A program made the position numbers and the translations under genes. The notes beneath the pieces are model-generated. The model had not been told where the DNA came from and made no database searches. It saw only the letters and a list, made by a program, of their open reading frames with translations. From Oscillospiraceae bacterium (GTDB taxonomy: Bacteria > Bacillota > Clostridia > Oscillospirales > Acutalibacteraceae), in assembly GCA_015066525.1 (NCBI GenBank), contig SVOG01000064.1, positions 1-34,334 of the forward strand: a DNA stretch of 34,334 nt. The letters run 5' to 3'. Below are positions 2,697 to 32,901 of the stretch, in pieces. Positions within the stretch are counted from its first letter, which is position 1. The number at the start of each line of letters is the position of its first letter.

Positions 2697-4046
2697 TTAA
2701 TAAATACCCTGCTCAATCATTGCCTGAGCAACCTTTTCGAAGCCGGCGATGTTCGCGCCTGCAACAAGGTTATAGCCCATATTGTAACGAGCGGCAGCTT
2801 CCATAGAAATCTTATGAATCTCAATCATTGCGTTGTGGAGTCTCTCGTCAACTTCCTCCGCTGTCCAGCGAAGTCTCTGGGAGTTCTGGCTCATCTCGAG
2901 ACCGGATACGCAAACGCCGCCGGCGTTAACAGCCTTGGACGGAGCGATAATAACGCCCTCCGTCTCCATAAAGAGGTCAAATGCGTCCTCAGTAGTCGGC
3001 ATATTCGCAACCTCGATATAGTACTTCGTACCGTTAGCGATAATCTTCTTAGCTTCTTCGAGCGTTACCTCATTCTGGGTAGCGCAAGGCATTGCGACAT
3101 CAACCTTAACGCCCCACGGTTTCTCGCCCGGGTGGAACTCACAACCGAACTTGTCGGCATAATCCTGCGCCTTGTCCCTGCCTGATGCACGCATCTCAAG
3201 GAGGTAGTTAATCTTTTCATCCGTTACGATACCGTCCGGGTCGTAAACATATCCGTCGGGGCCGGAAATGGTCACTGCCTTACCGCCAAGTTCTGCAATC
3301 TTCTTAGCAGCGCCCCACGCAACGTTACCGAAACCGGAAAGGGCGAAGGTCTTGCCCTTGATATCGTCATTCTCGTGCTTAAATACTTCGCAAGCATAGT
3401 AAACTGCGCCGAAACCTGTTGCCTCGGGACGGATGAGAGAACCGCCGTAGGTCTGACCCTTACCGGTAAGGACGCCGTTTTCATAAGCGTCGCGGATTCT
3501 CTTGTACTGACCGAAGAGGTAGCCGATTTCTCTGCCGCCTACGCCGATATCGCCTGCGGGAACGTCAACATCGGGACCGATGTGGCGCTGAAGTTCTGTC
3601 ATAAATGCCTGGCAAAAACGCATAATTTCGCCGTTGCTTCTGCCTCTCGGGTCAAAGTCGGAGCCGCCCTTGCCGCCGCCCATCGGGAGACCGGTGAGGG
3701 AGTTCTTAAAGGTCTGCTCAAAACCGAGGAAGTACATAATAGAAGCGTTTACGCTGGGGTGGAAACGAAGTCCGCCCTTGTAAGGACCGATGGCAGAGTT
3801 AAACTGCACACGGAAACCTCTGTTTACCTGCGTCTTGCCGTTATCGTCAACCCATGCAACGCGGAAACAGATGAATCTCTCAGGCTCGACCATTCTGCCG
3901 AGGATATCGAATTCCTCAAGCTCGGGTCTCTCGTTGACAACACCCTCGAGTGAGCGAAGAACCTCTTTCACGCACTGGATGAATTCCGGCTTTTCGCTGT
4001 CGCGCTGCTCTACTCTGGCAATAACGCTTTCGATGTATTTGTTCAT
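2697..4046 (-). CDS. gdhA: Glutamate dehydrogenase (NADP-type, hexameric)
   Basis: 449 residues, the usual length of the hexameric bacterial enzyme. It interconverts 2-oxoglutarate plus ammonia and glutamate in the cytoplasm, linking nitrogen and carbon metabolism. The N-terminal substrate domain holds GPYKGGLRFHPSVN and the GGGKGGSDFDPRG segment with the catalytic Lys. The Rossmann domain begins near FALSGFGNVAWGAA. The C-terminal half contains NAGGVCVSGLEMSQNS, typical of this family. Start: ATG preceded by AAGGAG. It has its own consensus promoter and terminator, so it is monocistronic. NADP preference is assumed from the subfamily and not read from a decisive residue. Confidence 0.96.
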   Translation of the reverse strand: MNKYIESVIARVEQRDSEKPEFIQCVKEVLRSLEGVVNERPELEEFDILGRMVEPERFICFRVAWVDDNGKTQVNRGFRVQFNSAIGPYKGGLRFHPSVNASIMYFLGFEQTFKNSLTGLPMGGGKGGSDFDPRGRSNGEIMRFCQAFMTELQRHIGPDVDVPAGDIGVGGREIGYLFGQYKRIRDAYENGVLTGKGQTYGGSLIRPEATGFGAVYYACEVFKHENDDIKGKTFALSGFGNVAWGAAKKIAELGGKAVTISGPDGYVYDPDGIVTDEKINYLLEMRASGRDKAQDYADKFGCEFHPGEKPWGVKVDVAMPCATQNEVTLEEAKKIIANGTKYYIEVANMPTTEDAFDLFMETEGVIIAPSKAVNAGGVCVSGLEMSQNSQRLRWTAEEVDERLHNAMIEIHKISMEAAARYNMGYNLVAGANIAGFEKVAQAMIEQGIY

Positions 4047-10622: not shown

Positions 10623-11143
10623 TCTGCCTCCCCGATTGCTTTAATCTTATCTCTGAGTACCGCCGCGTCCTCGAAGCGTTGCTCCTTGACGGCTTTTTTC
10701 AGTTCTGCCTTGAGTTTGTCGAGTTCGCTGACTGCCGCGGCAGACTCCTCCTGCGCAGCAGGCTCGCTCTCCTCGGTATAGGTCACGCTCTTGCCGATAT
10801 GCTTTGCCCTGCCATGGAGCTTTTCAATACTCGGGGAGAGCATATCCTCGAATTTATCATAGCAATGCGCGCAACCGACCTGTCCGCTGCTGACAACGTC
10901 ATTAAACGACGAGCCGCAGTAGGTACAGCGGTCAACGCCCGCCAGGGAATTCAGCGCCGCTGCGCCCGCACCGAGCAGGTTGCCGAAGAAACTGTCCATC
11001 GAAAACGGCTCAAAATTAAACTCATTCATCACGCCGAGTTCTCTGGCGCATTCGGAGCAAAGGTGCATTTCCTCGCGCTTTCCGTTGATATTTTTCTTAA
11101 TATGTGTGGTTGCTTCTCTTTCATGACAATGTGTGCATTTCAT
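10619..11143 (-). CDS. mcsA: McsA zinc-binding partner of McsB
   Basis: 174 residues. In the family McsA binds zinc, activates McsB and helps control CtsR under heat and metal stress. Four CxxC pairs are visible: C3-T-H-C6, C29-S-E-C32, CTYC near 73 and CAHC near 90, all four kept. The C-terminus (about 143-170) is a UVR-type helical motif, EQRFEDAAVLRDKIKAI, shared with the ClpC middle domain. The start ATG follows GGAGGT. It overlaps mcsB by four bases, indicating translational coupling. All zinc ligands are retained although the neighbouring McsB looks catalytically degenerate. Confidence 0.94.
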   Translation of the reverse strand: MKCTHCHEREATTHIKKNINGKREEMHLCSECARELGVMNEFNFEPFSMDSFFGNLLGAGAAALNSLAGVDRCTYCGSSFNDVVSSGQVGCAHCYDKFEDMLSPSIEKLHGRAKHIGKSVTYTEESEPAAQEESAAAVSELDKLKAELKKAVKEQRFEDAAVLRDKIKAIGEAE

Positions 11144-24782: not shown

Positions 24783-25016
24783 AAAAAAGCTTCCGCCTCA
24801 GATGAGGCGAAAGCATAACTTCCGTGGTACCACTCAAATTGCAGGGTTTCCCCTGCCGCTCCATAGTCTTAACGCGACTGCACGCTCTGCTTAGTTTCTC
24901 ACAGAGGGCTCCGTAACTGAAATTCAAACAGGTTTTCTCATATGCTCGCACCGACCGCATACTCTCTGCATCAAAAATGCTGCTCTACTTACATTACATC
25001 AACGCCGTCAATATTG
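24783..25016 (-). promoter_or_regulatory. T-box riboswitch controlling pheST (Phe specifier)
   Basis: The T-box sequence GAGTGGTACCACGG (24835-24822, minus) is near-consensus and pairs with the acceptor end of uncharged tRNA. The terminator stem GCTTTCGCCTCA/TGAGGCGGAAGC is followed by TTTTTT (down to 24783). Upstream, in the Stem I region, GAATTTCAG offers the specifier TTC (24921-24919), a Phe codon, matching the pheS-pheT genes downstream. Uncharged tRNA-Phe is expected to stabilise the antiterminator and permit expression. Confidence 0.92.
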
Positions 25017-30184: not shown

Positions 30185-30511
30185 TTAATTCAGGTAATTT
30201 TGCTCGACTTCGCGGATTGCCATTTCGCAAGCCACGTAGCAATATTTCAGCGAATCGTTTAAGATATCCTTCGCCGCATTGATATGACGCGACACGGTCG
30301 GCTGACTGATGCCGAGCTTTTCGGCAATCTCGCACTGCGTCATATTGTTCAGATACTTGAAGCGAAAACACACGCTCTGTTTGTCGGTGAGTTTGTTTTC
30401 AATCATCTTCGGCAGGACAACGCTGAACGCCTTTCGTTTGGCGGACGCGTTGCACGCCGTGTCACTGCGGTCAAAATCCCGGGAGTAATAGAAAAGGTCA
30501 ATGAAGTCCAT
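30185..30511 (-). CDS. Small sigma-70 region 4-like DNA-binding protein, predicted SOS-controlled
   Basis: 108 residues from ATG at 30511 (ribosome site GGGGAGG six bases before). The N-terminal third is not recognisable. Residues about 41-82 form a region 4-like helix-turn-helix, LTDKQSVCFRFKYLNNMTQC then EIAEKLGISQPTVSRHINAA, resembling short sigma-like regulators often found in phages and integrative elements. No region 2 is present, so it is not a complete sigma factor on its own. It is second in a two-gene unit, overlapping the first gene by 14 bases, and is transcribed from a promoter with a LexA box. Its target promoters are unknown. Confidence 0.78.
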   Translation of the reverse strand: MDFIDLFYYSRDFDRSDTACNASAKRKAFSVVLPKMIENKLTDKQSVCFRFKYLNNMTQCEIAEKLGISQPTVSRHINAAKDILNDSLKYCYVACEMAIREVEQNYLN

Positions 30512-30716
30512 ACTCATCCTCCCCGTAATATGCGCTAAGCAGAGATGCAGTATTTTTGCATTCACAAGCCATATCGTTATAAACCTTAATTCGTTTTCTC
30601 AGCAGATACAAGTCTTTGCCGGTGTAGACGCAAAGCAGCGGTCTGAGCGCGCTCACCTTATTACGCAGACGAATATACTGCTGCTCGTATTCACGAGCTA
30701 ATTCATCAATGTTCAT
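30498..30716 (-). CDS. Small charged helical protein, partner of the sigma-like gene
   Basis: 72 residues from ATG at 30716; GAAGGG lies about seven bases upstream. An upstream in-frame ATG (30734) lacks a ribosome site. The sequence is almost entirely helical and charged (MNIDELAREYEQQYIRLRNK, then DLYLLRKRIKVYNDMACECKN), with heptad-like spacing that suggests a short coiled coil. I recognise no domain. Similar small helical genes commonly precede region 4-like genes in phage and conjugative elements. Overlap of the stop with the next start points to coupled translation and perhaps a complex. Confidence 0.7.
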   Translation of the reverse strand: MNIDELAREYEQQYIRLRNKVSALRPLLCVYTGKDLYLLRKRIKVYNDMACECKNTASLLSAYYGEDEYGLH

Positions 30717-30770
30717 CTTCTGCCCTTCTTTCATTATGGATTGAGACGCGGAGTGGCGGGTCTCAATTAC

Positions 30771-30799
30771 ATATTAGTCGAACTTTTGTTCGATGTCAA
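30771..30799 (-). promoter_or_regulatory. Promoter with embedded LexA (SOS) box
   Basis: TTGACA (30799-30794) and TAATAT (30776-30771), 17-bp spacer. The spacer itself is TCGAACTTTTGTTCGA (30778-30793, plus-strand reading), matching the Gram-positive LexA box CGAAC-N4-GTTCG with both arms perfect. LexA bound here would cover the promoter. Just downstream, inverted arms TTGAGAC (30741-30747) and GTCTCAA (30760-30766) form a hairpin at the expected 5' end. Confidence 0.82.
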
Positions 30800-30879: not shown

Positions 30880-30908
30880 TTGACAACTTGGTCAGGTTTG
30901 GGTATAAT
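30880..30908 (+). promoter_or_regulatory. Consensus promoter of the small RNA gene
   Basis: TTGACA (30880-30885), 17 bp, TATAAT (30903-30908): a perfect sigma-70/SigA promoter. Expected start is about 30914-30916. Confidence 0.85.
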
Positions 30909-30914
30909 TACATA

Positions 30915-31015
30915 TGCACCTTTGACGGAGCCGCAACCGTCATAGGTAACCTGTCCTCCTATAGTTTGTTATAGACAGAGAGGGAAATACCCGCGTGTTA
31001 TACGCGGGTATTTTT
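30915..31015 (+). ncRNA. Candidate free-standing small RNA, about 100 nt
   Basis: Bounded by a perfect promoter and a strong terminator, with no open reading frame and no same-strand gene downstream. Predicted structure by eye: hairpin 1 with arms ACCTtTGACGG and CCGTCAtAGGT (one mismatch, loop AGCCGCAA); a linker with CCTGTCCTCC; hairpin 2 with arms CTATA/TATAG; and the terminator AAATACCCGCGT/ACGCGGGTATTT (30985-31013) followed by T-rich sequence. The CCTCC stretch is complementary to ribosome binding sites, as in base-pairing regulatory RNAs. It does not match riboswitch, SRP, 6S or tmRNA features that I know. The ends are predicted only. Confidence 0.68.
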
Positions 31016-31074
31016 CTTTTTTCATCTGTCGAAGGTGGATTTCATAAATGAAACGTTTACTGCGAAAAGTGAAA

Positions 31075-31193
31075 GGAGCGATGTGGTTATCGCTCCCTAC
31101 AAAGGTTTTTTCGGGGTGTTCGTAGGGGTCATTCACGAATGACCCGTTAAAAAAAGTTCGTAGGGGTCATTCACGAATGACCCGTTAAAAAAA
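31075..31193. repeat. Palindromic element and a perfect 38-bp tandem duplication
   Basis: GGAGCGAT/ATCGCTCC followed by CTACA (31075-31100) belongs to the TGTAGGG family. Two identical 38-bp copies follow (31118-31155 and 31156-31193), each with the palindrome GGGTCATTCACGAATGACCC and an A run. The related CGATTCACGAATCG is in the 4160-4334 element. The rest of the spacer to the pdxK-like gene shows nothing coding. Confidence 0.8.
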
Positions 31194-32154: not shown

Positions 32155-32901
32155 ATGAGCGGACATAATAAATGGAGTACAATAAAGCGCAAGAAGGGCG
32201 CAAACGACGCCGCAAGAGCGAAGATATTTACGAAAATCGGCAGAGAGCTTGCCGTTGCCGTTAAAAACGGCGGTCCCGACCCGAATAACAACGCCAAGCT
32301 TCGCGACGTTATCGCAAAGGCTAAGCAGAACAACGTTCCCAATGACAACATTGAGCGTATGCTCAAAAAGGCTGCAGGCGACACCGACAGCACGAACTAT
32401 GAGGAAATCATATACGAGGGCTACGGTCCGAGCGGCGTTGCAGTTGTAGTTGAAGCGCTTACCGATAACCGCAACCGTACAGCAGGCGAGGTTCGCCACT
32501 ACTTTGACAAGGCGGGCGGAAATATGGGCAACCCAGGCTCGGTAACGTTTATGTTTTCTCGTCAGGGCGTTATCATCATCGAAAAAGAGGACACCGACGA
32601 GGATCAGCTTATGGAGGACGCTCTTGAAGCAGGAGCGACTGATTTCCTCACGGACGACGAGGATATCTTTGAAATCCGCACCGAGCCTAACGACATCGGT
32701 CTTGTGCGCGACGACCTTGAAGCAAAGGGCTACACGATTGTTTCGTCTGAGCCTGCTTACATCCCGTCGACATATGTGCGTCTTGACAGTCAGGACGATA
32801 TGAAAAAGATGTCAAGAATGATTGATATGTTTGATGAAAACGAGGACGTTCAGAACATCTATCACAACTGGGAGAATGAAGACGAATACGAAGAGCAATA
32901 A
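32155..32901 (+). CDS. yebC: YebC/PmpR family protein
   Basis: 248 residues, full length. The family was named as transcriptional regulators, and members also help ribosomes pass proline stretches. The start MSGHNKWSTIKRKKGANDAAR is the family hallmark, followed by KIFTKIGRELAVAVKNGGPDPNNN and NNVPNDNIERMLKKA. The middle and C-terminal domains are acidic (EDTDEDQLMEDALEAGATDF). ATG follows AAGGAG. Monocistronic, with its own promoter and terminator. The ruvC and ruvAB genes often near yebC elsewhere are absent here. Confidence 0.96.
   Translation: MSGHNKWSTIKRKKGANDAARAKIFTKIGRELAVAVKNGGPDPNNNAKLRDVIAKAKQNNVPNDNIERMLKKAAGDTDSTNYEEIIYEGYGPSGVAVVVEALTDNRNRTAGEVRHYFDKAGGNMGNPGSVTFMFSRQGVIIIEKEDTDEDQLMEDALEAGATDFLTDDEDIFEIRTEPNDIGLVRDDLEAKGYTIVSSEPAYIPSTYVRLDSQDDMKKMSRMIDMFDENEDVQNIYHNWENEDEYEEQ

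Follow-up and report, generated by a model that had tools for sequence, protein, structure and literature searches.

The window analysed here, 34,334 nucleotides of contig SVOG01000064.1 from an Oscillospiraceae bacterium, carries a predicted small RNA (sRNA) gene together with a divergent neighbouring pair of open reading frames (ORFs) (Table 1). The original prediction had described a perfect TTGACA-17-TATAAT promoter followed by about 100 nt with two hairpins and a terminator; the promoter is exact (30880-30908), and the two hairpins and the terminator are borne out by the fold. Around 0.004 such exact promoter sites would be expected on both strands of the window at equal base frequencies. 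The predicted RNA (30913-31018) folds at -44.4 kcal/mol, compared with -23.6 kcal/mol (sd 3.1) for dinucleotide shuffles (z = -6.7), and none of 200 shuffles is equally stable. Two details of the prediction require revision. The CCTGTCCTCC linker had been taken as unpaired, which holds for CTCC (30956-30959), a bulge, and fails for CTGTC (30951-30955), which pairs with GACAG (30974-30978). The terminator, given as 12 GC-rich base pairs, stands as a terminator, with a stem that extends to 18 bp in the fold and has six consecutive G-C pairs in its core. The statement that no gene follows on the same strand, and hence that the RNA is not a leader, agrees with the position of the next convincing same-strand gene, of the YebC/TACO1 family, at 32155 and some 1.1 kb away. 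A small-peptide reading was rejected, as the ORFs spanning 30880-31018 are short and sequence invariance in the alignment tracks the hairpins. The unit is intergenic, has its own promoter and intrinsic terminator and, as judged from the alignment, no conserved ORF, as is characteristic of a trans-encoded sRNA. High abundance of the RNA is predicted.

Table 1. Features at the sRNA locus, in window coordinates
Feature	Position	Strand	Remarks
Sigma-70 region 4-like helix-turn-helix (HTH) protein, divergent neighbour	30185-30565	-	Family adjoins the sRNA in most of 37 loci
78-aa ORF between sRNA and HTH gene	30498-30734	-	Overlaps HTH gene
LexA-box-like palindrome CGAACTTTTGTTCG	30779-30792		Promoter region of divergent 78-aa ORF and HTH gene
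sRNA promoter	-35 TTGACA 30880-30885; 17-nt spacer; -10 TATAAT 30903-30908	+	Exact match
Spacer element, possible operator	30886-30895	+	AATTRTGCAA in relatives; weaker in the window (ACTTGGTCAG); putative function
Small RNA	30914-31018	+	Predicted start 30914-30916, end in terminator T run; about 105 nt
Hairpin 1	30918-30947	+	Compensatory changes in a variable stem; loop AGCCGCAA at 30929-30936, almost invariant in type A
Hairpin 2	30951-30978	+	CTGTC/GACAG, bulge CTCC 30956-30959, TATA/TATA, loop GTTTGT 30964-30969
Predicted antisense (seed) region	30954-30972	+	Putative pairing partner of target ribosome-binding regions; lysC leader in own genome
Intrinsic terminator	30980-31018	+	Fold, covariance

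Two other elements of the window deserve mention. A second 12-of-12 TTGACA-17-TATAAT promoter lies at 25051-25023 on the minus strand, just before a T-box leader (24800-25011, minus strand; RF00230, 109 bits), and two near-identical tandem copies of GTTCGTAGGGGTCATTCACGAATGACCCGTTAAAAAA, with a palindrome, occupy 31118-31193, just 3' of the sRNA.

The absence of a match to a known RNA class, as originally claimed, holds for Rfam at gathering score, where the sRNA has no match in the search of the window. The best weak match from 401 bases searched at E up to 10 is Leu_leader, at 25.5 bits against a cut-off of 50, and this identity was rejected because the match falls below cut-off and is aligned through the terminator. 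The GcvB and RoxS/RsaE family models are absent from the matches of both searches, and the sRNA loci of two relatives gave no Rfam match at E 0.1. Searched as DNA, the sRNA matches 37 of 98 genomes, its own included, all of the same genus, which includes Eubacterium coprostanoligenes ATCC 51222, a laboratory strain with the sRNA and with sites at amt and DAHP synthase in its genome. A covariance model (R1) built from 37 sequences, of the kind that the original prediction had proposed, finds the sRNA across most of the genus, matching 72 of 80 genomes (own included), or about 71 once the alignments are read. The match in G046 was dropped as a chance match to the terminator only, a second match in G100 (C38) is also chance, and the copy in G115 is degenerate. 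In 394 genomes of the order the model makes six matches, four of them within the genus and two (G139 and G342) beyond it; these two proved to be terminator-only on inspection, leaving no credible match in other genera among these genomes. The open literature (without bioRxiv and most subscription journals, and without supplement lists such as those of PMC8040213, described in the part cited as a human-microbiome structured-RNA survey) yielded no sRNA of this group or with the set of targets described below.

The alignment supports the fold. Double-sided changes occur in 22 of 28 base pairs, and 96.3% of alignment cells are paired compared with 80.7% after shuffling (covariation 0.521 versus 0.203). 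Nine of ten pairs in helix 1, where the original prediction had proposed to look for compensatory changes, carry double-sided changes, as do 11 of 13 in the terminator and two of five in helix 2. The hairpin-1 loop and almost the whole of hairpin 2 show no sequence variation, which suggests that these parts pair or bind in trans.

The sRNA occurs as two types, GTTATA and GTAATR. Type A combines the loop AGCCGCAA with TCCTCCTATAGTTTGTTATAGACAGAG (40 of 68 extracted loci) and type B the loop GCCGCA with TCCTCCATAGTTTGTAATRACAGAG (28 of 68), both with small variations. These 68 loci were extracted by pattern from the 71; the three missed (G001, G032 and G042) were typed A by hand. On a pckG tree the types are clustered, with four changes and at least two, although the tree is weakly resolved and too weak for type origins to be counted. 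TTGACA and TATAAT are exact in 66 of the 68 loci, a count to be read with the similar promoter that extraction itself required. The spacer element forms a partial dyad, TTGnnnAATTnnnCAA, with the -35 hexamer, and its full TTG/AATT/CAA form is present in 18 of the 62 promoters with a 17-nt spacer; the conserved AATTRTGCAA-like stretch is perhaps an operator.

The nearest upstream ORF lies on the opposite strand in 34 of 37 loci, and the HTH family comprises 35 of the flanking ORFs; in 29 cases its member is the closest one upstream. The linked HTH protein is possibly a regulator. The 78-aa ORF has no NCBIfam or PHROG match. The palindrome between this ORF and the sRNA resembles the LexA box consensus, and a similar palindrome is present within 600 bases upstream in 41 of 67 sRNA loci, compared with about 0.04 per 600 bases over all loci, which suggests that the small operon next to the sRNA is under SOS control.

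In relatives, hairpin 2 gave two weak DNA matches that proved to be the complementary strand at the amt ribosome binding site rather than copies. Hairpin 2 (CCTCC-ATAGTTTGT) is complementary to the ribosome-binding regions of amt, pckG, gdhA, lysC and other genes. The original idea that CCTCC could pair with ribosome binding sites is therefore supported computationally, now with named targets, and the predicted pairing region is much longer, taking in the GTTTGT loop and the stem arms. The pattern ACAAACTAT-N0-8-GGAG-N4-13-ATG occurs at 61 places in 80 genomes, whereas control patterns in the same genomes occur 3 times (backward) and 7 times (9-mer reversed). Removal of 11 matches to the sRNA itself and two duplicates leaves 48 distinct sites. 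These precede lysC and pckG in ten genomes each, amt in four, and citrate synthase, lysA and sugar kinase genes in two each, with single-genome sites at gdhA, serC, galE, purE, dnaK, a ribosomal protein gene and others. Several of the 48 are lone genes without a nitrogen link, such as dnaK, galE and the ribosomal protein gene, and these count against a common theme. A looser site at a DAHP synthase gene was found through BLAST with the sRNA core; core matches that fall inside coding sequence and not at starts (such as CTCTGTCTATAACA, seen in a single gene family in G002, G049 and G112) were set aside. One representative each of aspartate kinase, NADP-glutamate dehydrogenase, phosphoserine transaminase, citrate synthase, PEP carboxykinase (GTP) and DAHP synthase scores above its NCBIfam cut-off; that of lysA falls below (279 versus 298 bits), and the remaining target names are our reading of the translations. 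Several unlinked mRNAs are complementary to the sRNA at their start regions, and relatives retain this, again as found for trans-encoded sRNAs.

Sites were also assessed in orthologue leaders gathered irrespective of the motif by family or protein search. The sets comprise 39 amt (2 untyped), 58 pckG (5 untyped) and 54 gdhA leaders (2 untyped), with one amt leader added from the pattern search; they do not cover every genome, amt having been sought in 60 genomes and the other genes in 80. Scored by the longest run complementary to the type-consensus sRNA segment, type B leaders of pckG (10.50 versus 5.46 in dinucleotide shuffles, sd 0.21, n=24) and gdhA (8.72 versus 5.37, sd 0.19, n=25) stand well above shuffles, as do amt leaders of type A (7.55 versus 4.73, sd 0.18, n=22) and type B (6.93 versus 5.14, sd 0.24, n=15). 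Type A leaders of pckG (5.72 versus 5.08) and gdhA (5.58 versus 4.77) are weakly above them. Swapping in the sRNA of the other type lowers the mean run in all six leader sets. Duplex energies, calculated with one representative RNA per type, favour the cognate type in 17/22 type A and 8/15 type B leaders for amt, 23/29 and 19/24 for pckG, 15/27 and 19/25 for gdhA, and 27/37 and 23/26 for lysC; type B amt and type A gdhA leaders thus show scarcely any preference for the cognate RNA. The motif is missing from most rumen-type A amt leaders. Other elements are visible in these leaders. Four pckG leaders (L314, L335, L337 and L340) from the type A subgroup to which the window's genome belongs share TGATAAACTA...GTTTAAT, and type B amt leaders (for example L059, L060, L062, L065 and L072) carry CACAATGGGGTG hairpins followed by a terminator-like hairpin; the CACAATGGGGTG hairpins presumably resemble ANTAR-controlled attenuators.

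The sRNA and its predicted targets change together. With a type A sRNA, the base 5' of ACAAACTAT, which lies outside the search pattern, is expected to be A, and with type B to be T. Of 20 type A sites 17 have the expected A, and of 24 type B sites 22 have the expected T (Fisher p 1e-8, A versus T); with lysC sites removed these become 13 of 16 and 17 of 19 (p 2e-6). All 48 sites entered this analysis, of which four in genomes without a typed sRNA, all A, were not counted. The types being clustered in the tree, these p-values treat related genomes as independent, and the counts should not be read as separate trials. The lysC site lies partly within the last codons (..KVTNY*) of the upstream gene, so part of the motif conservation is coding, and the exact 9-mer is present in 30 of 70 leaders. 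The Val codon before the motif is GTA in 27 and GTT in 8 type A genomes, compared with 1 and 25 in type B (p 3e-9, related genomes again counted singly), whereas no difference between types is seen at a control Val located six codons upstream (p 1). The Asn codon at the site is AAC in 21 and AAT in 1 of the type B genomes, whereas a control Asn is AAC in 8 and AAT in 18. Type A genomes have AAC at the site in 14 cases and AAT in 18, and a G-U pair would tolerate AAT. In G106 a second copy of the motif lies beside the lysC ribosome binding site, well past the stop codon. Such matching changes, seen here in genomes that are not independent of one another, are a further mark of a trans-encoded sRNA, and the agreement across several genes is a stronger argument than the site counts.

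Within the window's own genome (G000, 74% complete), lysC is the sole clear predicted target. Its leader, with the site at G000:C22:26328-26359, forms a predicted duplex of -24.3 kcal/mol that takes in the Shine-Dalgarno sequence (SD). This is a slight advantage over 25 other window leaders, which reach -21.9 kcal/mol at most (mean -13.6). Possible pairing at -21.9 kcal/mol is seen for a window ORF with its start at 11143 on the minus strand. No amt gene was found in this 74% complete genome, and the leaders of pckG and two gdhA genes contain no sRNA site on inspection; one of the latter is a second glutamate dehydrogenase gene, in the window at 2697-4046 (minus strand). BLAST of the own genome with the core recovered the sRNA itself alone in one search and nothing in another.

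The loop of hairpin 1 may provide a second contact. Its complement, TTGCGGC, is present in amt leaders L055, L058 and L171, with one change in L054, and also upstream of pckG in a subgroup of type A. Loop-complement runs of at least 7 occur in 7 of 29 type A pckG leaders (0.35 in shuffles) and 5 of 22 type A amt leaders (1.0 in shuffles), and no type B leader has a run of at least 7 complementary to the type B loop. G010, a type B genome, has an amt leader of the type A kind. A kissing contact between the loop and these leaders is plausible, and less well supported than pairing by hairpin 2.

The gene structure, its conservation, complementarity above shuffles and the matching changes in sRNA and targets, all established computationally, point to a stand-alone, trans-acting antisense repressor of multiple nitrogen and amino-acid mRNAs, a reading we consider very probable. 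The sRNA would be a transcription unit in its own right, with a strong promoter and a terminator, and the hairpin-2 region, 5'-TCCTCC(T)ATAGTTTGTWATR..ACAGAG-3', would serve as the antisense segment. Pairing would be initiated by the exposed GTTTGT loop with ACAAAC just upstream of the target SD and extend into the TATA stem arms and the CTCC bulge, covering GGAGG, so that 30S binding should be blocked. The main targets would be amt (ammonium transporter), gdhA (glutamate dehydrogenase), pckG (PEP carboxykinase) and lysC (aspartokinase), with citrate synthase, lysA, serC and DAHP synthase as further candidates in one or two genomes each. The predicted theme is nitrogen assimilation together with amino-acid synthesis and its supply of carbon skeletons. 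We infer from sequence that the sRNA is expressed, that it represses these mRNAs and that a nitrogen or amino-acid signal controls it.

Other explanations were weighed against this. ACAAACTAT upstream of the SD could be a translation enhancer independent of the sRNA, which would then act otherwise. ACA motifs upstream of the SD boost translation of GcvB targets in Salmonella (PMC3879156, in the part cited), and ACAAACTAT adjoins the SD in unrelated genes; however, an enhancer would not follow the sRNA type in several genes by turning from AACAAAC into TACAAAC, and enhancer and target roles can coexist. We regard this explanation as quite improbable, and give similarly little weight to a main role in binding or titrating a protein (the HTH protein or an RNA-binding protein) through the hairpin-1 loop GCCGCA, with mRNA pairing secondary. 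The HTH gene is linked to the sRNA, the loop is better conserved than its own stem, and its 7-nt complement exceeds chance in some type A leaders alone, yet it is hairpin 2 that forms the longest conserved block and has its complement at many targets with matching changes.

The least probable alternative, and a very slight one, is a terminated 5' leader (attenuator) of the downstream gene, for example the ORF family, read as a putative alanine racemase, that mostly follows type B loci. Among the 37 loci, window included, the next downstream ORF is on the same strand in 25, lying 18 to 190 nt away in 14 of the 15 type B loci concerned. These ORFs belong to several families, with the terminator in between. 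Against a leader, the next ORF is on the opposite strand in 12 of 37 loci (window included), type A neighbours differ, and no alternative fold is predicted, the minimum and centroid structures agreeing. A constant same-strand downstream gene, as for a cis-acting leader or riboswitch, was not found across the 37 loci.

As a predicted multi-target repressor, the sRNA is reminiscent of known systems. GcvB, a multi-target regulator of amino-acid genes (PMC11878033, PMC9409037, in the parts cited), likewise pairs just upstream of the SD at ACA-containing targets, and its gene is divergent from that of its activator, gcvA (PMC3879156, in part), as the sRNA here is from the HTH gene. The sRNA differs in size (about 105 versus 200 nt), phylum, a sigma-region-4-like neighbour and the lack of an Rfam match, and its predicted targets concern ammonium uptake and assimilation, where those of GcvB are peptide and amino-acid transporters. 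RoxS/RsaE of Bacillus and Staphylococcus is also a Firmicute RNA that directs a C-rich segment to the SD in central metabolism, and its targets include citrate synthase CitZ (PMC4409812, PMC8216469, in the parts cited). RoxS has several C-rich regions (CCCCUUUGUU), whereas the sRNA has one CCTCC joined to ATAGTTTGT, no Rfam match, and a predicted regulon centred on nitrogen and amino acids. FsrA of Bacillus is another C-rich antisense RNA, with targets that include gltAB and leuABCD (PMC8216469, in part); its sequence is different, and no iron pattern was noticed among the predicted targets here. By this comparison the sRNA functionally resembles GcvB and RoxS/FsrA and, with no Rfam match, appears to be a separate new family.

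A broader interpretation, which we offer tentatively and hold rather less likely than its converse, is that this one sRNA is a central post-transcriptional carbon-nitrogen regulator in the E. coprostanoligenes group. It would have two modules, hairpin 2 for ribosome binding sites and a GCCGCAA loop kissing TTGCGGC in amt and pckG leaders, and a seed change between clades would have rewritten many targets, even via synonymous codons upstream of lysC. Many of the 56 named records of the genus are labelled rumen or gut, and ammonia use in these environments matters for host nutrition. The predicted regulon is readable from sequence, and the natural seed switch between types would provide ready-made compensatory tests and an unusual view of joint change in one sRNA and many targets.
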